A DNA stretch of 64,000 nt, taken from positions 1 to 64,000 of the forward strand of contig JANQQK010000005.1 of the NCBI GenBank assembly GCA_028289375.1, written 5' to 3'. Below are positions 6,039 to 14,417 of this stretch, in pieces. This DNA is from Phycisphaerae bacterium (lineage in GTDB: Bacteria > Planctomycetota > Phycisphaerae > UBA1845). The notes under the pieces are model-generated. The model made no database searches. It was not told where the DNA came from and saw only the letters and a program-made list of their open reading frames with translations. The position numbers and the translations under genes were made by a program. Each line of letters starts with the position of its first letter. The stretch's first letter is position 1.

Positions 6039-6401
6039 TTATAAATGATGGGCCTTGAGAATCTTGCGAAGCTCTGCCAGTTCGAAGGGCTTCTCGACGG
6101 TCACACGATTGGCGAGGTGTGTTTCGGAGTGCTCCCCGATGGTGGTCATCTCGATGATCAGGGCATCGGGGTTGTCGGTGAGGATTTCGTGTTCCACGTC
6201 TTCGATCTGCACGTCGGGCAAGTTATCGGACACCATCGCCGCGTCGGGGTGCCAACACTTCATCTGGTCGGCTGCTTCCGCCGCGGAACGAACTTGGAGG
6301 ATATCGTAGTCCTTCTGAAAGTATGACTTTAGCGACCACGCTGTCAACTCGTCAGGTTCGACGATCAGAAGTTTCCGGGTTGGAAGGGCAGCGGTTTGCA
6401 T
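6039..6401 (-). CDS. Receiver-like protein lacking the phosphoacceptor Asp
   Basis: 120 residues from the ATG at 6401; the start was chosen because the receiver fold begins there (MQTAALPTRKLLIVEPDE) and upstream codons are not conserved-looking. A single receiver (CheY-like) domain and no output domain. The acidic pocket (EPDE) and the C-terminal Lys (VEKPFE) are kept. The usual Asp in the beta3 end is replaced: MVSDNLPDV aligns with MLDHKLPDV of the neighbouring activator, which puts Ser at the phosphorylation site with Asp one residue later. It may be a phosphorylation-independent adaptor of the adjacent two-component system. The start has no strong ribosome site. Confidence 0.7.
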   Translation of the reverse strand: MQTAALPTRKLLIVEPDELTAWSLKSYFQKDYDILQVRSAAEAADQMKCWHPDAAMVSDNLPDVQIEDVEHEILTDNPDALIIEMTTIGEHSETHLANRVTVEKPFELAELRKILKAHHL

Positions 6402-6565
6402 CGAGAAAATGCAGAGCAGATTTCGTGCCGCACCCTGAAGAATCGAACAGTGGGGTGCTGCCCCCATTCTGCGAGGCAAATCCCCCACGACTGGGGTATA
6501 TCACAACGGCAATTGCTGTCGGGTGTCGAAAGCCCCGGGCCATCAGGTCTAACCGCCGTTCAGTG

Positions 6566-6581
6566 TGGCACGATACGTGCA
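6566..6581 (+). promoter_or_regulatory. Candidate sigma54 (-24/-12) promoter
   Basis: TGGCACGATACGTGCA differs from the TGGCACG-N4-TTGCW consensus at one position. GG at 6567-6568 and GC at 6579-6580 are separated by the required 10 bases. It lies in the 316-base non-coding interval 6402-6717 and points towards a structured stretch, not towards an open reading frame. A sigma54 activator gene ends 137 bases away on the other strand. Confidence 0.5.
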
Positions 6582-6590
6582 GAGAGGTAG

Positions 6591-6700
6591 AGTTGCGTGG
6601 CAGTCGACGGGTTAACGCCTGTTCAATGCTCATCCCATCCCGGCCCGAACGGACGGGTGCCGTCGACTGCCCCGTTTCTTTGCGGGACTTCTTTGCAGTC
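6591..6700 (+). ncRNA. Putative structured small RNA, sigma54-driven
   Basis: The expected transcription start of the sigma54-type promoter is about 6591. Eight bases later a 12-base perfect inverted repeat begins: GGCAGTCGACGG (6599-6610) and CCGTCGACTGCC (6660-6671). Inside it a second helix can form (CCCGGCCCGAACGGACGGG region, 6638-6657). The closing stem is followed by CCCGTTTCTTTGCGGG and ACTTCTTT, a weak terminator-like hairpin ending near 6695. No start codon with a ribosome site or coding pattern is seen. The rest of 6402-6717 holds no recognisable gene. Alternative: the inverted repeat serves the minus-strand transcript between the two regulator genes. Confidence 0.4.
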
Positions 6701-6717
6701 GAGGCGATGGCCGCCGG

Positions 6718-8097
6718 TCAGTCGCCTCTTCTTTTTGGAATCAGGTCGAACTTTTCCAAACGGTAGCGGAATGTGTCGCGCGACATGTTCAGCAACTTGG
6801 CTGCCTTGGTCTGGTTGCCGCCGGATTGCGCCATTGCTTGTTCGAGCAGGCCCTTCTCGAGTTGATCGAAATCAAGCCCCTCAGCCGGGATGGGCATGTT
6901 GCCGACGTCGGCTGGCTGGGGTACCCCCATGTTGCCCAGCACGATGTCCTCCTCCTCGATGACGTTGCTCTTGCAGAGCAGAACCGCCCGTTCGCAGACA
7001 TTGCGCAGTTCGCGCACGTTGCCAGGCCATCCGTAGTTCAGGATTTTCCCGATGGCGGCGTCTGAGACACTGGTAATGTCCTTGCGGAATTCGGTGGCGA
7101 ACTGGTGCACGAAGATCCTTGCCAGGGCGGCGGGATCCTCGCCGCGTTGGTGCAGGGCGGGAATGTCGATTGTCACGACGTTCAGGCGGAAGAGCAGGTC
7201 GCTGCGAAACGCGCCTTCCTGGATTGCCGCTTCGATGTCGCGGTTGGTGGCGGCGATGATGCGGACGTTGACGTGGATTTCCTCCGTTCCACCCACGCGT
7301 CGAAACGTCCGCTCCTCCAGAAATCGCAGGAGTTTGGCTTGGAGCGCACCGGGCATGTCGCCGACCTCGTCGAGAAAGACGGTCCCACCATCAGCCAACT
7401 CGAAGAGCCCCTTCTTCTGGGTCCGCGCGTCGGTGAAGGCGCCGCGTTCGTGGCCGAAGAGTTCACTCTCGAGCAGGGCTTCGGAGATGGCGGTGCAGGT
7501 GATGTTCATGAACGGTCGGGGTGCGCGCTCCGAGTTGTAGTGGATGACGCGGGCGAGGAGATCTTTTCCGGTTCCAGTGTCGCCGCGCAGGAAAACGGTT
7601 GTTGCGCTGCTCATGCAGACACCCTTGACGACATCCATCATCTGCTTCATGGAGCTGTGGTCGCCGATGACACGGTCGAATCCGTACTGATGCTCCATGT
7701 GTCGACGAAGCTCGCGGACTTCGCGGCGGAGTCGCGTTGTTTCGAGCGCCTTGTCGACGGTACGAAGCAACAGGTCCATCTGGAATGGCTTGGGGACATA
7801 GTCGAACGCGCCGAGCTTGATGGCTTCAACGGCGTCCTCGATGCGGCTGTAGGCGGTCATCATGATGACGGGTGTGTCATGATCGCGTTGCCGAAATGTG
7901 CGGAGAATGTCCAGTCCGGTGACGTCGGGCAGCTTGTGGTCGAGCATGACGAGGTCGAACTGTTTGTGCGCGAGCAGATCGGATCCCTCGCTGCCACGTT
8001 CCGCCTCGATCACGTCGAACCCCAGTTGCTCGAACTTCTGTCGCAGCGACCAGCGGATCAGGCTTTCGTCCTCAACAATCAACACGCGAATGGACAT
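6718..8097 (-). CDS. NtrC-family sigma54-dependent response regulator
   Basis: 459 residues with the full three-domain layout. The receiver domain has Asp53 in MLDHKLPD and Lys in the PKPFQ motif. The AAA+ domain has Walker A GDTGTGKD near residue 172 and the sigma54-contacting loop GAFTDA near 235. The C-terminal Fis-type helix-turn-helix is in the last 45 residues (NQTKAAKLLNMSRDTFRYRL). It would be phosphorylated by the kinase encoded 27 bases upstream and activate sigma54 promoters. Two candidate sites lie nearby (6566-6581 and 9401-9416). Confidence 0.95.
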   Translation of the reverse strand: MSIRVLIVEDESLIRWSLRQKFEQLGFDVIEAERGSEGSDLLAHKQFDLVMLDHKLPDVTGLDILRTFRQRDHDTPVIMMTAYSRIEDAVEAIKLGAFDYVPKPFQMDLLLRTVDKALETTRLRREVRELRRHMEHQYGFDRVIGDHSSMKQMMDVVKGVCMSSATTVFLRGDTGTGKDLLARVIHYNSERAPRPFMNITCTAISEALLESELFGHERGAFTDARTQKKGLFELADGGTVFLDEVGDMPGALQAKLLRFLEERTFRRVGGTEEIHVNVRIIAATNRDIEAAIQEGAFRSDLLFRLNVVTIDIPALHQRGEDPAALARIFVHQFATEFRKDITSVSDAAIGKILNYGWPGNVRELRNVCERAVLLCKSNVIEEEDIVLGNMGVPQPADVGNMPIPAEGLDFDQLEKGLLEQAMAQSGGNQTKAAKLLNMSRDTFRYRLEKFDLIPKRRGD

Positions 8098-8124: not shown

Positions 8125-9324
8125 CTACAGTGGGAGCGGGCGTTCCTGCTCAAGCGGTAACTCAATGATCACGGTTGTGCCCTTCCCCGGGGTGCTCTCA
8201 AGGCGGATTTCGCCCCCGTGAGATTCAACGATGCTGCTGCAGATTGATAGTCCCAGGCCCGTTCCCTTGGGTTTGCGGGTGTAAAATGGCTCGAAGACGC
8301 GTTCGCGGGTTTCGTCGTCCATTCCCTGGCCTGTATCGCGGATGGTGACACACATCGAATGGTCGGATGATTCAAGTGCAATGGCCACTTCGCCACCATG
8401 CTCACACGCATCCACCGCATTGATCGTCAGGTTCAGCAACAGCTGGCCCATTTTGGCGGGATCGGCCTGGACGATCGCGGCATTTCCGTTGGGATGGTAG
8501 GAAATGTGCACACCGTTTGCGGCTGATTCCTTCCGGATGAACATAAGCGTGCTCTGGATTACGTCATCCAGATTGCACGACTCGAATCTTGGATCGCTGG
8601 GGCGCGCGTAGAGCAGCAGGTCTTTAACCACGTCATCGAGTCGAATGATCTGTGCAAGCATTTCGTCCATGATACGTGCATGCTCATGCTCGCTGCCGAG
8701 GCTTTCGCGAATGATCTGGATGGCTCCGCTGATTCCGGCCAGCGGGTTCTTGATCTCGTGGGCGAGTGACACAGCCAATTGTCCGAGTTCGGCGAGGTGT
8801 TCTGCGCGTGTGAGTTTGGCTTCGACGGCTTCTCGTTCATGCTCGCGAATGCGGCGGGTGTGGGTCTCCTTGTAGCTGCCGAGCATAACGGCCAATTCGA
8901 CCGACAGGAGTTTCGCGAGTGCTCGGGCGTGATCGCTTTCGTGGTCGATGCCCGACTCGCGCAAAACGCTCATTAGTTCGCGCCGCAATACGTGCATGCC
9001 CGCGATCATGTAGTGTTGGGGCAGTCCCACGCGAAGATGGGCGCGGCCGATCCGCAAGCGGTTCCGAAAGTACGTTTCGTCGTATTCGCCGATAAACAAT
9101 TCGCGAAGCCAGCCATGGAGCGATTCGCGCTGTCGCTGCATTTGCTCCTGTCCGCCGGTGAAGACGGCTCGTGCTTTGGGATCGGCCTCCAGCAGCTCGT
9201 AGAACGCTTCCACGATGCGTTGAGCGTGGGGAAGAACGTGCGGAGCGAGGCTCGCCACGCGATCAGCCGCTGGCTGATCAAAACCGATGTAGCGGCAGAT
9301 TTCCTGGAACTCGGCTACATTCAT
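8125..9324 (-). CDS. Globin-coupled sensor histidine kinase
   Basis: 399 residues from the ATG at 9324. Residues 1-160 look like the globin sensor domain of HemAT/GcS proteins: a helical fold with RIGRAHLRVGLPQHYMIAG, where His96 is the likely proximal haem ligand. The phosphotransfer helix follows with His189 in SLAHEIKNPL. The ATPase domain has an N box (LTINAVDAC), G1 (DTGQGM), F (FEPFYTRK) and G2 (KGTGLGLSI) motifs. There are no membrane segments, so it is a cytoplasmic gas (O2, NO or CO) or redox sensor. It is the first gene of an operon with the NtrC-type regulator. Haem binding is inferred from sequence only. Confidence 0.85.
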   Translation of the reverse strand: MNVAEFQEICRYIGFDQPAADRVASLAPHVLPHAQRIVEAFYELLEADPKARAVFTGGQEQMQRQRESLHGWLRELFIGEYDETYFRNRLRIGRAHLRVGLPQHYMIAGMHVLRRELMSVLRESGIDHESDHARALAKLLSVELAVMLGSYKETHTRRIREHEREAVEAKLTRAEHLAELGQLAVSLAHEIKNPLAGISGAIQIIRESLGSEHEHARIMDEMLAQIIRLDDVVKDLLLYARPSDPRFESCNLDDVIQSTLMFIRKESAANGVHISYHPNGNAAIVQADPAKMGQLLLNLTINAVDACEHGGEVAIALESSDHSMCVTIRDTGQGMDDETRERVFEPFYTRKPKGTGLGLSICSSIVESHGGEIRLESTPGKGTTVIIELPLEQERPLPL

Positions 9325-9400
9325 GGCGTCATCATAGGGGCTGATCCGCGCGTCGCCAGTGTGGGGGAAATGCCTTGAGGCGGGGCGTATCGCGCATCGG

Positions 9401-9416: not shown

Positions 9417-9754
9417 CAATCGGCTTTTCGGGGCGTCGTGTGGCACACGGGATGAGGGTCTGGGGATCGAAGTTCTTGGAACGCCGATTGCCGGTGCAAT
9501 CACGGACGGGCTACCATTGTGTCATCAGTTTGGCCGGGATTCTGTTCTTGCAAACAACCGATGGCGACGTTCGACGTTGACAGGGGTTCGTGAGATTCGC
9601 CGCTGTCGTGACTCGTTGCCGAGTGCGTGGTGGTTGTCATCGTGCAAGACGGGCAATACGGTCATGTTTCGATTGGTGTGAGAGATTGAGCGCAGATGTC
9701 GTGAACGTTGGTGGAAGCGCTTTGACAGCAGGTGGTCGAATCGTGCGAAAGAGA
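9417..9754. other. Non-coding divergent region between the kinase and cbb3 operons
   Basis: About 340 bases separate two divergent operons and should hold both promoters. I see no open reading frame with a ribosome site, no tRNA and no clear hairpin terminator. No FNR box (TTGAT-N4-ATCAA) is visible, although a cbb3 operon often has one. Confidence 0.4.
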
Positions 9755-10150
9755 ATGAGCAAGGCGGCGATAAATTTTTTGCTGGATGCCGCGCTGTTTG
9801 TCATGTATGGTGCCGTCGTCGCGTCGACGGTTGTCGTCCGATTCGTGTTCCCCTCGGCTGTGGAAACGGCAGGTTGGAGCCTCTGGAGTCTGGACTACAA
9901 CACGTGGTGTAATGTTCAAGCCGGGAGCATCGCGTTTTTCACGTTCGGCGTTGTTATACATGTGATTCTGCATTGGGGCTGGATCTGCGGCTTTGTCGCG
10001 ACCCATTGGCCCCGTCGTGATCGGAAACCGGTGCAGGTTCCCGATGGTATCCGCACGTTGTATGGTGTGGGCCTGTTGATCACGGTGGTGACGGTGATGG
10101 GCATGTTTCTCGCTGTCGCGGTGGTGATGATCGAGGCGCCGGCGGCCTGA
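9755..10150 (+). CDS. DUF4405-like integral membrane protein
   Basis: 131 residues from the ATG at 9755 (AAAGAG just upstream; a GTG at 9743 is an alternative). Three to four hydrophobic helices. The pattern of an aromatic and His-containing helix pair (FGVVIHVILHWGWICGFV) with a following RRDRKP loop resembles small di-His cytochrome b-like proteins of the DUF4405 group. It is the first gene of the cbb3 oxidase run, so it may anchor haem or mediate quinone contact there. Function is inferred from place and histidines only. Confidence 0.6.
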   Translation: MSKAAINFLLDAALFVMYGAVVASTVVVRFVFPSAVETAGWSLWSLDYNTWCNVQAGSIAFFTFGVVIHVILHWGWICGFVATHWPRRDRKPVQVPDGIRTLYGVGLLITVVTVMGMFLAVAVVMIEAPAA

Positions 10151-10214
10151 TGCGGTTGATTTTGAACACGTGGCGCGATCTCACGCGTCGTCACTCAGTT
10201 GGAGAGCGGTAAAC

Positions 10215-10853
10215 ATGGACCGCGCAGAGAAAATAAATCGGCTTGAGGAACTCCGGGCGGAAGCGGCGAAGATCGAAGCCGAGTTGGCGGCCGAGGAGCG
10301 TACTCCCTCGTGGCCTCCGCGTGATTACTACCTTGCTTACCACACGCTGGCGGGCATGGTGCTTGGGTTCGTCGGTGCTTGTGCGAGCCTGATGTTCAAC
10401 GTGATTGGATCGGCCATCGTCGATCAGTCGCCATTTCAGCTTATCAAGGTGTACATGACCTTTCCGCTGGGTGCTCGTGCGCTGGAGATCAGCGACGGAT
10501 TTGCACTCGCTGGTGGCTGTGGTCTGTATCTGTGCACCGGGGCAATTTTTGGTGTTCCGATTCACCTTGTGCTGAGCAGTTGGATGGCGCGGTCCTCGTT
10601 TGTCAGTCGATTTGTGGCGACGACGATCATGGGGCTGGCGTTGTGGATTGTGAATTTCTACGTGCTGCTGTCGTGGTTGCAGCCGTCGCTGATCGGTGGG
10701 AACTGGATACTCGATCAGATTCCGTGGTGGGTTGCTGCTGCGACGCACGTGGTGTTTGCGTGGTCGTTGCTGGCGGTCAGCCGCTGGGGACACTTTGCAC
10801 CATACGAATATCAGCTTTCCGGGGCATCGCTCTCGGGTGAAATGGCTTCGTAA
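10215..10853 (+). CDS. Membrane protein of the oxidase operon, coiled-coil N-terminus
   Basis: 212 residues from the ATG at 10215. Residues 1-30 form a short coiled coil (INRLEELRAEAAKIEAELA), followed by five probable membrane helices. No catalytic motif is recognised. It lies between the DUF4405-like gene and the cytochrome c lipoprotein in the same orientation. I infer an accessory or assembly role, with no direct evidence. Confidence 0.7.
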   Translation: MDRAEKINRLEELRAEAAKIEAELAAEERTPSWPPRDYYLAYHTLAGMVLGFVGACASLMFNVIGSAIVDQSPFQLIKVYMTFPLGARALEISDGFALAGGCGLYLCTGAIFGVPIHLVLSSWMARSSFVSRFVATTIMGLALWIVNFYVLLSWLQPSLIGGNWILDQIPWWVAAATHVVFAWSLLAVSRWGHFAPYEYQLSGASLSGEMAS

Positions 10854-10885
10854 GGACCGTTCTGGGAAAGGAACCGACAAGGACC

Positions 10886-11956
10886 ATGTTGCGTTGTTAC
10901 AGGATCGTCTGCTGCTGGGGCTTTCTGACCGCCGGGCTGTTGTGCGGATGTGTGCCGGATGATCGTGAATTCGTGGCTGGTGCGGCGGATCCCGCGGAGG
11001 CGGGGTATCAGGTGCCGCCGGCTGAATCACTGATCGTCGAAGGCAAGCAAACGTATGAGACGCACTGTGCGGGCTGTCATGGTGACAAGGGTGATGGATT
11101 GGGCGCGGCTGCCCGCTTCCTGCATCCCAAGCCGAGGAATTTCATTACGGCCAAGTACAAGTTCAGTTCTCGGCGGAGCGGCAACCTGCCGACCGACGAG
11201 GATCTGTTTCACACGATCACGTACGGTTTGCGTGGCTCGTCCATGCCGGGTTGGAAACTTCTGCCTGAGCGTCAGCGCTGGGCGGTTGTGTCTTACATCA
11301 AGACGTTTTCCGACGCGTGGGAGCAGGTCGAGCCCGGCTCGCCGATTCCGATCGTGGAGGATCCCTACCCGACGTCGATGGACAAAGCCGACGCCATCGC
11401 ACGCGGCGAAGCGGTTTACCATGGCATCGCGCAGTGCTGGACGTGTCATCCGGCCTACGTGAGCACGGACAAGATCAACGAATATCGCAAGCAGATGGAG
11501 TTGCCTGAGTCGACGGCGTTTCGCGAGGACATCGACAAGTCCGTCGCACGGATCAGCAGTCTGGGACAGTTGATCTACGTGCCGGATTTCAAGCGTGATT
11601 ATGTCAAAGCGGGCAATGACGTCCGGACGTTGTACAAGTCGATTTCAGCGGGCATCACGGGTACGGCGATGCCGACGTGGGTCGACAGCATCGAGATTCC
11701 GTCGATGCACGGATCGGGCAATGTGACGGATCGCGGCGATCTTTGGGCGCTTTCCTATTACACGCAGCATCTCATCGCTCAGCGACCGCCTCTGCTTGCG
11801 TCTGCGGACATCCAGATTCGCGAGGACCGTGCGATGGACACGTCGTCAGAGGATTGGCGACCGAACGTGCGGGCGTCGATGCTGACAACGTCTGGTGTTG
11901 GCAGTGGCGAAGAGGGTGGCGAGGACGAGGAAGAAGAGGAAGAAGAAGAGGAATAG
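10886..11956 (+). CDS. Dihaem cytochrome c lipoprotein, CcoP substitute
   Basis: 356 residues. A lipobox (LLCGC, Cys22) would anchor it to the outer face of a membrane. Two haem c sites: CAGCH at residues 61-65 followed by GDKGDG, and CWTCH near residue 184. The C-terminus is a strongly acidic tail of about 20 residues, almost all Glu/Asp. It sits directly before ccoN, where a dihaem electron-entry subunit is needed because no canonical CcoP is present. The most likely job is to pass electrons from the bc1 or alternative complex to CcoO/CcoN. The acidic tail could dock a basic cytochrome. Confidence 0.85.
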   Translation: MLRCYRIVCCWGFLTAGLLCGCVPDDREFVAGAADPAEAGYQVPPAESLIVEGKQTYETHCAGCHGDKGDGLGAAARFLHPKPRNFITAKYKFSSRRSGNLPTDEDLFHTITYGLRGSSMPGWKLLPERQRWAVVSYIKTFSDAWEQVEPGSPIPIVEDPYPTSMDKADAIARGEAVYHGIAQCWTCHPAYVSTDKINEYRKQMELPESTAFREDIDKSVARISSLGQLIYVPDFKRDYVKAGNDVRTLYKSISAGITGTAMPTWVDSIEIPSMHGSGNVTDRGDLWALSYYTQHLIAQRPPLLASADIQIREDRAMDTSSEDWRPNVRASMLTTSGVGSGEEGGEDEEEEEEEEE

Positions 11957-12009
11957 CGCGGACTTTCGTCTGAAGAGCCTGGACGCGAATCGGAGGATCG
12001 AGAGGACTT

Positions 12010-13407
12010 ATGACAACGGCTGCTTCACCACCACTCATGCCCGCACGCGACACATCTGGTGCGCATGCTCTGGTGGATCACAAACTGGTCACGTCGTATT
12101 TCGTGGCATCATTCGTGTACTACATCATCGCTTTGCTGGCTGGCGGGCTTTATTCGATGCAGTTCCTGCAGCATTACCCGTTTCCGGGTGCGGAACTGTT
12201 TTCGCCGGGACGCATCCGCATGCTGCACACGAACGGGATGGCCTACGGATTCATTGCCAACGCCTTTCTGGGCGGGCTTCACTGGGCGGTGCCGCGGCTG
12301 ACGCTGCGACCGGTGCTGAGTGCCAAGCTCTCTTGGTTCATCTTCATCGCGTGGCAGGGCATCGTGCTCGGCACGGTTGGCGGATTGCTGACCGGCCAGG
12401 CGCAGGCGGTGGAGTGGGGCGAGACGCCGGTATGGATTGATCCGGTGGCGGTGCTCGGTTTGACGCTGGTCGGTGCGAACTTCTTGGCGTCGGTTTTCCG
12501 CATGCGGTCGTCGATGTATGTGTCGGTGTGGTACTTCATCGCGGCGCTGCCGTGGACATTGCTGACCTACACGATGGGCAACTTCTTCGTTGAGTATTGG
12601 ATCGGTGGGACGGCCAGTGGTGCGATCATCGGTCTGTTCATTCACGATCTGGTCGGGTTGTTCGTCACGCCGATCGGGTGGGGATTGATGTACTACTTCG
12701 TGCCGATCATCCTGAAGAAGCCGATCTGGAGTCACGGCCTGTCGTTGGTGGGTTTCTGGGGATTGGCGTTCTTCTATCCGCTCAATGGGATTCACCATTT
12801 TCTGTACACGCCGATTCCGATGTTCCTGCAGCATGGCGCGATCGTGGCGACCATCGCGGTTGAGTTCGTGGTGACCACCGTCATCATCAACTTCTTCATG
12901 ACGCTGCGTGGATCGGGTGACGCATTGCGACGCAACCTGCCGATTCGCTGGTTCTATGTCGGCATGGTGTTCTACTTCACGACATGTCTGCAGTGTGCCT
13001 TCCAGGTGACGCTGACGTTCCAGAAAATCATCCACTTCTCGGATTGGGTCGTCGGGCACGCGCACCTGGTGATGTTCGGTGTGTTCGGATTCTGGATCAT
13101 GGGCATGTTCACGTATCTGTTCCCGCGTCTGGTCGGGGCGACCCGCTGGTACAGCGACAAGCTGAACGCGTGGCACTTCTGGCTGAGTGCGATCGGCATG
13201 CTCATCATGTTCTTTGACTTGGTGATTGCGGGTCTGGTTCAGGGATTCTTGTGGAAGGATCTGGCGATCTGGGAAGAGAGTCTGCGGGCGTCGATGCCGT
13301 TCTGGATGATTCGTTCGTGGTCGGGGCTGGGCATTATCGTTGCGCAGTTCCTGTTTGGTTGGAACATGTACAAGACGGCGACGGATCGTTCGCTGCGGGC
13401 AGCGTAG
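12010..13407 (+). CDS. ccoN: cbb3-type cytochrome c oxidase subunit I
   Basis: 465 residues with about 12 membrane helices, slightly shorter than proteobacterial CcoN. Key histidines are seen in RMLHTNGMAYGF (haem b), GLFIHDLVGLFV and YPLNGIHHFLYTP (CuB ligands, with the HH pair) and DWVVGHAHLVMFG (haem ligands). It is the catalytic subunit of a high-affinity oxidase that reduces O2 to water and pumps protons. GAGAGGAC lies just upstream of the ATG. The next gene is ccoO, 16 bases on. Confidence 0.93.
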   Translation: MTTAASPPLMPARDTSGAHALVDHKLVTSYFVASFVYYIIALLAGGLYSMQFLQHYPFPGAELFSPGRIRMLHTNGMAYGFIANAFLGGLHWAVPRLTLRPVLSAKLSWFIFIAWQGIVLGTVGGLLTGQAQAVEWGETPVWIDPVAVLGLTLVGANFLASVFRMRSSMYVSVWYFIAALPWTLLTYTMGNFFVEYWIGGTASGAIIGLFIHDLVGLFVTPIGWGLMYYFVPIILKKPIWSHGLSLVGFWGLAFFYPLNGIHHFLYTPIPMFLQHGAIVATIAVEFVVTTVIINFFMTLRGSGDALRRNLPIRWFYVGMVFYFTTCLQCAFQVTLTFQKIIHFSDWVVGHAHLVMFGVFGFWIMGMFTYLFPRLVGATRWYSDKLNAWHFWLSAIGMLIMFFDLVIAGLVQGFLWKDLAIWEESLRASMPFWMIRSWSGLGIIVAQFLFGWNMYKTATDRSLRAA

Positions 13408-13423
13408 TTGGGAAGCGTTTCAG

Positions 13424-14122
13424 ATGTTTGAATCGAAATCAGGTATTCTGGCGATTGGCGGCGTCGGGTTCTTCGTCTTCGCGTACATCGTGATGGGGGC
13501 GCTTCCCTGGACGATCTACAAGGATCAGCCGGAAAAGAGCATCCTCGAAGTGGCCAGCGAAGGCATTCCGCACGAATTCGTTGATCTGGCTGAGCGGTTT
13601 CCTGCGCAGTTCAAGGAGCATTTCGGCGAGGTGAGCTACGAGTCCTTCGCAGCTGCTCTTGAACTTGGCCGGGACATCTATGTGGGCGAAGCTTGCTGGC
13701 ATTGTCACTCGCAGTTCATTCGCCCGGTATCCCGCGAGGACATTCGCTGGGGACCGATCGCGCATGCGCGTGAGTACAACAACGAACTGCAGCGACCGGT
13801 CTTGTTTGGAACGCGGCGCGTTGGGCCTGACCTGAGTCGTGAGGCGGGGCGGCGGTCGAACGACTGGCACATCGCGCACTTCTATGAGCCGACGAACGTT
13901 GTGGCCGCTTCGGTGATGCCGGCGTACCCGTGGTTCTTTGATGAGGCCGATGTGCCCAACAAACGCGGCATGGCGATCATCGCGTATGTCCAGTGGCTGG
14001 GCAGTTGGCTTGACGAATATCCTTACTACGAAGAGGCGCCCAAGGCGCCGAAGCTTGACGACGACGCATCGTCGACGGAGGTTGCGGACCATGGCCACGA
14101 CCGTGAACAAGAAGAAATATAA
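13424..14122 (+). CDS. ccoO: cbb3-type oxidase subunit II, monohaem cytochrome c
   Basis: 232 residues from the ATG at 13424. One N-terminal membrane anchor (GGVGFFVFAYIVMGALPW) precedes a periplasmic domain with CWHCHSQFIRPV (residue 91 on), the usual CcoO haem site. A downstream Met (ASVMPAYPWF) is the likely sixth ligand. The C-terminus is acidic. It overlaps the next gene by 32 bases. Confidence 0.92.
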   Translation: MFESKSGILAIGGVGFFVFAYIVMGALPWTIYKDQPEKSILEVASEGIPHEFVDLAERFPAQFKEHFGEVSYESFAAALELGRDIYVGEACWHCHSQFIRPVSREDIRWGPIAHAREYNNELQRPVLFGTRRVGPDLSREAGRRSNDWHIAHFYEPTNVVAASVMPAYPWFFDEADVPNKRGMAIIAYVQWLGSWLDEYPYYEEAPKAPKLDDDASSTEVADHGHDREQEEI

Positions 14123-14417
14123 AGCACCGCGCGTCTTTCTGATCGTGATGGCGGTGGGCGTGTTCATCACTGGCATGTACGGGTTCGGCTCGAAGCTCGA
14201 ACAGTTCATTCGTGCGGTCATCGTTGAGAACGAAGCCGACTTCACGCTGATTCCGGTGTTGAACTACATGTTTGCGGCTGCTGGGTTTCTGTGTCTGTTC
14301 GGCTGGGCGGCCAAGAACGGCATGTTCAAGGATCTCGAGAAGCCCAAGTACGACATGCTCGAATATGATCGTGAACTGGATGAAGTGGATGGCATCGACT
14401 GGGAGAAACAGGCGTGA
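14091..14417 (+). CDS. Small two-helix membrane protein of the cbb3 operon
   Basis: 108 residues. GGAGG stands 9 bases before the ATG, inside the end of ccoO, so the overlapping start is well supported. Two membrane helices (VFLIVMAVGVFITGMYGF and LNYMFAAAGFLCLFGWAA) are followed by a charged tail. No haem motif. It is probably an accessory subunit of the oxidase, in the place where ccoQ lies elsewhere. Confidence 0.75.
   Translation: MATTVNKKKYKAPRVFLIVMAVGVFITGMYGFGSKLEQFIRAVIVENEADFTLIPVLNYMFAAAGFLCLFGWAAKNGMFKDLEKPKYDMLEYDRELDEVDGIDWEKQA

Follow-up and report, generated by a model that had tools for sequence, protein, structure and literature searches.

We asked whether positions 6566-6700 of the window, a 64,000-nucleotide stretch from the genome of a Phycisphaerae bacterium (G000), encode a small RNA under sigma54 control, and whether such an RNA would answer to the NtrC-type activator gene lying beside it. 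The initial annotation had proposed both on the strength of four features, and examination of the window revealed each of them in place (Table 1): a near-consensus -24/-12 promoter with exactly 10 bases between GG (6567-6568) and GC (6579-6580), a 12-base perfect inverted repeat after the predicted start, a further hairpin inside that repeat, with a stem of 9 bp, and an NtrC-type activator gene ending nearby on the other strand. The promoter has a single mismatch against TGGCACGNNNNTTGCW, and its position predicts that the transcript starts at approximately 6592. Within 64 kb, the promoter match alone is not beyond chance. The window holds 11 sigma54 sites with two or fewer mismatches where 12.6 are expected, only two of the sites having one mismatch, and scans of the region with simple terminator and promoter consensus patterns stayed at chance level. 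The window alone leaves the question of an RNA open, and it is the comparison with relatives that decides it; the site amounts to more than chance because it is conserved in the congener G001 and because the structure that follows it covaries over 67 copies.

Table 1. Features of the predicted small RNA gene and of its surroundings, in positions of the window.
Feature	Position	Strand	Basis
Gene for a small receiver-like protein (120 aa counted from ATG), no Pfam match	6039..6401	-	ORF; G001 orthologue 52% identical
Second, divergent sigma54-like site, CGGCACGAAATCTGCT	6415..6430	-	Conserved in G001 as CGGCACAGCGTTTGCT
GCAAAT element, candidate upstream activating sequence common to both sigma54 promoters	6476..6481		Spacing kept in G001
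Predicted sigma54 (-24/-12) promoter of the small RNA, TGGCACGATACGTGCA	6566..6581	+	Sequence; same position in G001
Predicted small RNA, approximately 90 nt (to approximately 6738 if the back-up terminator is used)	6592..6685	+	Promoter position, R3 match, covariation
Outer stem, 5' arm	6599..6610	+	Sequence, folding, covariation
Inner stem, 5' arm	6616..6624	+	Folding, covariation
C-rich apical loop, AATGCTCATCCCATCCCGGCCCGAAC, presumed target- or protein-contacting part	6625..6650	+	Conserved over the RNA family
Near-invariant loop core, CGGCCCGAA	6641..6649	+	64/67 aligned copies
Inner stem, 3' arm	6651..6659	+	Folding, covariation
Outer stem, 3' arm, then T-rich tract CCGTTTCTTT	6660..6671	+	Sequence, folding, covariation
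Back-up intrinsic terminator, GAGGCGA..TCGCCTC + TTCTTTTT	6701..6736	+	Sequence, folding, G001 counterpart
NtrC-type sigma54 activator: receiver, AAA+, and Fis HTH, with GAFTDA loop	6718..8097	-	Pfam Response_reg, Sigma54_activat, HTH_8
Sensor histidine kinase with protoglobin domain, probably the activator's partner	8125..9330	-	Pfam Protoglobin 2e-29, HisKA, HATPase_c

The same locus was found in G001, a member of the same genus, next to an activator 79% identical to that of the window, and a sigma54-like site, TGGCATGACACATGCT, occupies the position matching 6566-6581. The 73-nt RNA core is 92% identical between G000 and G001, compared to 37-50% for the flanks. Within the core, hardly any change is seen in the loop (a single differing base over 6625-6650) or in the inner 3' part, and where the stem differs it is mostly in ways that RNA pairing tolerates. 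G001 also has a strong terminator at the place matching 6701-6736. Plain blastn among 60 relatives recovered this congener only, and a covariance model was therefore needed.

A first covariance model, built from the copies of G000 and G001, found further copies within the family, and the model was rebuilt from 17 copies. Covariance-model E-values are rough here owing to the short calibration; at E<=0.01, the 17-copy model matched 78 of the 114 genomes of the order, and model R3 matched 6595-6685 of the window with 61.6 bits (E 1.4e-13). A third model matched 65 of 397 genomes of the class, all belonging to the same order, and gave no match in the approximately 299 genomes from its other orders. 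Among 392 phylum-wide genomes, only the window's own was matched and none of the 391 others. These empty results outside the order serve at the same time as a control for false positives. A plasmid collection likewise gave no match.

The pairing of the two stems is borne out by compensatory change. An ordinary MAFFT alignment of the 17 copies had changes on both sides in 16 of the 19 pairs, and RNAalifold returned nearly the same structure from it. Over 67 copies, in an alignment fitted to the covariance model, compensatory changes were seen in 19/19 pairs and 94.6% of cells were paired; the covariation score was reached by none of 500 shuffles and collapsed when the alignment was slid by one column. 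No Rfam 15 family matched the window at the gathering threshold or any of eight family loci at E<=1, and the Rfam covariance models of GlmY/GlmZ and Qrr were unmatched in the window and in the eight loci alike. Nor did we find a planctomycete sRNA family described in the open-access literature. This is a real, conserved, and uncatalogued structured RNA family that is specific to the order, and the comparison of sequences supports the RNA reading far beyond what a single genome could have done.

Family members share one architecture, a single long hairpin having an outer stem of approximately 11-12 bp, a small 5' bulge, an inner stem of 6-9 bp, and a large C-rich loop. Folding of the 73-nt hairpin of the window gave z = -3.55, and none of 200 shuffles folded equally well. 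A pyrimidine run of at least 8 lies directly 5' of GGCCCGAA in 58 of 67 copies. The stem is followed on its 3' side by a T-rich tract in 63 of 73 copies, compared to 7% of background places, and the hairpin therefore doubles as a terminator. The T-rich tail of the hairpin is modest in the window, where it is backed by the stronger terminator downstream, which extends into the 3'-terminal part of the activator gene. The 3' end of the RNA is probably at around 6680-6690. In the majority of genomes the RNA occurs once. Tandem hairpins, two or three with the same loop motif, were seen at L191, L182, L188, L178, L174, and L198, and some of these are short or degenerate.

Sigma54-like sites were found to precede the family copies. 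A site scoring at least 0.85 lies 15-300 nt upstream on the same strand at 48 of 65 loci, as opposed to 2/63, 2/62, 5/64, and 6/63 in same-strand control windows (3-10%); the opposite strand of the same interval gave 15/65, in part from palindromic and divergent sites. The loci are related and should not be counted as independent events. Even so, they differ widely from the matched controls, with 24/65 loci at a score of at least 0.95 against none in all four same-strand controls and one on the opposite strand. The initial annotation had staked its proposal on the stem and the -24/-12 bases being conserved in relatives. Conservation was found for both, the stem in the covariation described above and the promoter in the corresponding site of G001 and in those of the wider family. 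The gene for sigma54, rpoN, was present in all eight genomes tested. With a near-consensus -24/-12 element of the form GG-N10-GC upstream and a structure conserved by covariation, the family has the marks of a sigma54-dependent sRNA, and the computational evidence for its control by sigma54 is strong.

The distance between site and hairpin is not uniform. In approximately 17 copies, the window's included, 22-45 nt separate the site from the stem, and in the others it lies 70-283 nt upstream. Copies near the NAD synthetase gene nadE and some others, belonging to many lineages (L161, L166, L167, L169, L173, L178, L182, L183, L191, and L192 among them), have a near-consensus site approximately 130-283 nt upstream. 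The distal sites therefore predict longer transcripts there, of roughly 200-370 nt, that end in the hairpin. No clear conservation, and no conserved leader, was seen in the sequence between distal site and hairpin, and no convincing common activator site was found upstream of the distal, nadE-type sites. A gapped inverted-repeat search upstream of the proximal sites was also empty. The notion that the nadE-type copies lack sigma54 control was considered and rejected, as the distal sites there are a real signal. No sigma54 site reached the threshold at 17 of the 65 loci, and TATAAT-like boxes are present at some of these and at a few loci that do have a sigma54 site. In families f4 and f8 (L208, L212, L213, L221, and L223), a TATAAT-like box coincides in part with the sigma54 site immediately 5' of the RNA, an arrangement that might let two sigma factors share one start region.

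The link to the neighboring activator, also made in the initial annotation, is retained beyond the window. RNA copies adjacent to the activator were found in G000, G001, G015, G030, G071, and G020, and in a tree that omits G071 (congeneric with G030), the activators from G000, G001, G015, and G030 cluster together with 95/98 support. The sigma54-contacting loop has GAFTDA instead of GAFTGA at every one of the 33 loci that yielded the motif (loci L031-L064), and a published survey (PMC4641369) lists GAFTDA among the variants expected to keep activity. Of 30 sigma54-like sites in the window, only those at 6566(+) and 6430(-) have GCAAAT within 180 bp. One and the same element would serve both promoters, at a spacing of 90/51 in the window and 91/52 in G001. 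In each of G000, G001, G015, G030, and G071 (5/5), the proximal sigma54 site is preceded at 81-94 bp by GCAAAT or ATTTGC, for an expected density of 0.064 per 180 bp; in G014, whose RNA copy is by a hemerythrin gene, the distance is 72 bp. The motif was chosen after inspection and is therefore a strong lead, not proof. Its absence from other lineages suggests that other activators drive the RNA in those genomes. For the clade of the window, we consider the computational evidence for control by the neighboring activator to be strong. The probable partner kinase is adjoined by a cbb3-type oxidase gene cluster (9590-14400, operon start at approximately 9.6 kb). The protoglobin domain of the kinase, together with this nearby operon, leads us to guess that the signal is oxygen or nitric oxide.

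The above considerations indicate that the locus quite likely encodes a stand-alone, Hfq-independent sRNA of approximately 90 nt that is activated by the NtrC-type regulator of the protoglobin kinase and acts through its C-rich loop. We infer that the neighboring protoglobin histidine kinase (heme of the O2/NO type) presumably phosphorylates the activator, which would bind near the GCAAAT element and trigger RNA polymerase with sigma54 to start at the predicted position. The product would be one long, self-terminating hairpin exposing the C-rich loop with CGGCCCGAA, and this loop would most likely repress target mRNAs by Hfq-free pairing with G-rich sites close to their ribosome-binding sites. 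In keeping with the Hfq-independence of this scheme, Hfq (PF17209) was detected in 0/114 genomes of the order, while positive controls were detected. A search of the 114 genomes with the 18-mer complementary to the loop gave matches that, where they recurred across genomes, were nearly all the RNA genes themselves. The complement of the window's own loop variant gave nothing common to the two congeners, and RNA duplex prediction against the 5' regions of the window's genes did no better than with shuffled sequence. As no long complementary target was found, the pairing step rests on analogy, by which mRNA pairing appears the most likely action of the RNA.

A protein partner would also agree with the unusually constant loop. 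The CGGCCCGAA loop could bind a conserved RNA-binding protein, which the RNA would titrate or regulate in the manner of CsrB/RsmZ or GlmY. In favor of such a role, the loop is nearly invariant across the order while the stems are free to change, the search for loop complements brought up no conserved complementary RNA, and two or three tandem copies are present at several loci. However, the proposal is without a candidate protein, the usual state of one copy with one loop per genome is unlike that of the multi-site CsrB type, and the C-rich part of the loop has changed in the genus of the window; we regard action as a protein-binding or decoy RNA as unlikely. A wider possibility, which we advance only tentatively, is that an Hfq-free sigma54 circuit extending over the whole order is built around the RNA, whose near-invariant loop would have a dedicated protein or RNA partner and whose gene would have changed place and been coupled to different sigma54 activators and signals repeatedly. 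If this were true, the protoglobin O2/NO kinase would be the input here, with NAD synthetase or hemerythrin genes adjacent elsewhere.

The genes that follow the RNA bear on whether it is instead a cis-acting leader, in which case the hairpin would work as an attenuator or a terminator of riboswitch type within the 5' UTR of the gene downstream, controlled by an RNA, protein, or ligand bound to its loop. On the strand of the RNA, the gene that comes next encodes a glutamine-dependent NAD synthetase (nadE) in 18 loci, an amidohydrolase in 6, and a hemerythrin-domain protein in 3, and at one of the hemerythrin-domain loci a Shine-Dalgarno sequence comes directly after the hairpin, all of which a leader would account for. 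A leader should, however, always occupy the 5' UTR of a functionally consistent gene, and the downstream genes vary between clades, many loci having unrelated or convergent ones. The downstream gene is convergent in the window, in G001, and in about 10-12 other loci, and at these the RNA therefore stands alone. Tandem copies are common, moreover, and the covarying structure showed no alternative antiterminator pairing. A free-standing RNA explains all of the contexts and a leader only part of them, and we hold a leader to be decidedly unlikely.

Two simpler readings are far less probable still. A mere transcription terminator or DNA palindrome between convergent genes, with a sigma54 match by chance, would agree with the T-rich tract 3' of the stem and with a promoter match no rarer in the window than chance, but it is already largely refuted by an invariant loop and a fully compensated stem in varied contexts where the neighbors differ, and by the strong enrichment of same-strand sigma54 sites upstream. 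A small protein-coding gene or dual-function RNA is equally improbable: although open reading frames run through the interval and both G000 and G001 retain the frame VNA.SMLIPSRPERTGAV, the copies vary in length through all three residues modulo 3, the stem changes are compensatory and not codon-position-wise, and no conserved start or Shine-Dalgarno sequence was seen. The absence of a reading frame claimed in the initial annotation is not literally correct, as spurious frames at 6323-6766 and 6597-6962 cross the interval, but its substance stands, in that covariation and non-triplet indels oppose coding.

We then compared the favored sRNA with known systems. The initial annotation had cited GlmY/GlmZ and Qrr of gammaproteobacteria, and the likeness extends to control logic: a sigma54 promoter, an NtrC-family activator acting through upstream sites, a trans-acting sRNA, and paralogous copies. 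It does not extend to relatedness, as the negative Rfam results leave no relation of sequence or structure, and the analogy is one of control logic only. The RNA described here is a single long hairpin where those have several stem-loops, and it belongs to a different phylum, to an order without detected Hfq, and to a locus whose linked sensor is a protoglobin kinase. The CrcZ/NrsZ-type sRNAs of Pseudomonas (CbrB/NtrC with RpoN) are likewise driven by a two-component sigma54 activator, in which the likeness lies, and there is no sequence relation; CrcZ is much longer and titrates Hfq/Crc. In Desulfovibrio vulgaris, sigma54 regulons list ncRNAs downstream of sigma54 promoters that are assigned to activators, and in the sections of PMC4641369 cited here these appear as regulon members only, with no structural family, the phylum again being a non-model one. 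With respect to the loop, sX13 of Xanthomonas, RNAIII of Staphylococcus, and HPnc5490 of Helicobacter resemble the present family in having a C-rich apical loop exposed on a stable stem and no need of Hfq. The C-rich loops of sX13 repress mRNAs that bear G-rich motifs near the start codon (PMC3771888), and the self-terminating stem of the present RNA adds to the resemblance with sX13. sX13 has three stem-loops and no homology to the present RNA, and the loop core CGGCCCGAA is conserved over a greater length than a 4C/5C motif. The family is thus placed as a new one within a known class, the sigma54-dependent bacterial sRNAs.

Regulatory RNAs of planctomycetes seem to be little known. A structured RNA family that spans most genomes of an entire order, is associated with sigma54 promoters, and comes without Hfq gives a concrete point of entry to post-transcriptional control in the phylum. 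The family is also a testable case of an sRNA gene that keeps its RNA while the activator, the genomic site, and presumably the signal are exchanged. In the window, the position of the protoglobin kinase beside the cbb3-type oxidase operon suggests that respiration is regulated in response to oxygen or nitric oxide.

Two further sigma54-like sites were noted in the surroundings of the RNA. One of them, TGGAACGCCGATTGCC at 9477 (+), precedes the cbb3-type oxidase cluster and is without a GCAAAT element. The other is the divergent site at 6415-6430 (-), which lies approximately 14 bases before the ATG of the receiver-like open reading frame, as does its counterpart in G001; this short gap predicts that the transcript of that open reading frame would be almost leaderless.
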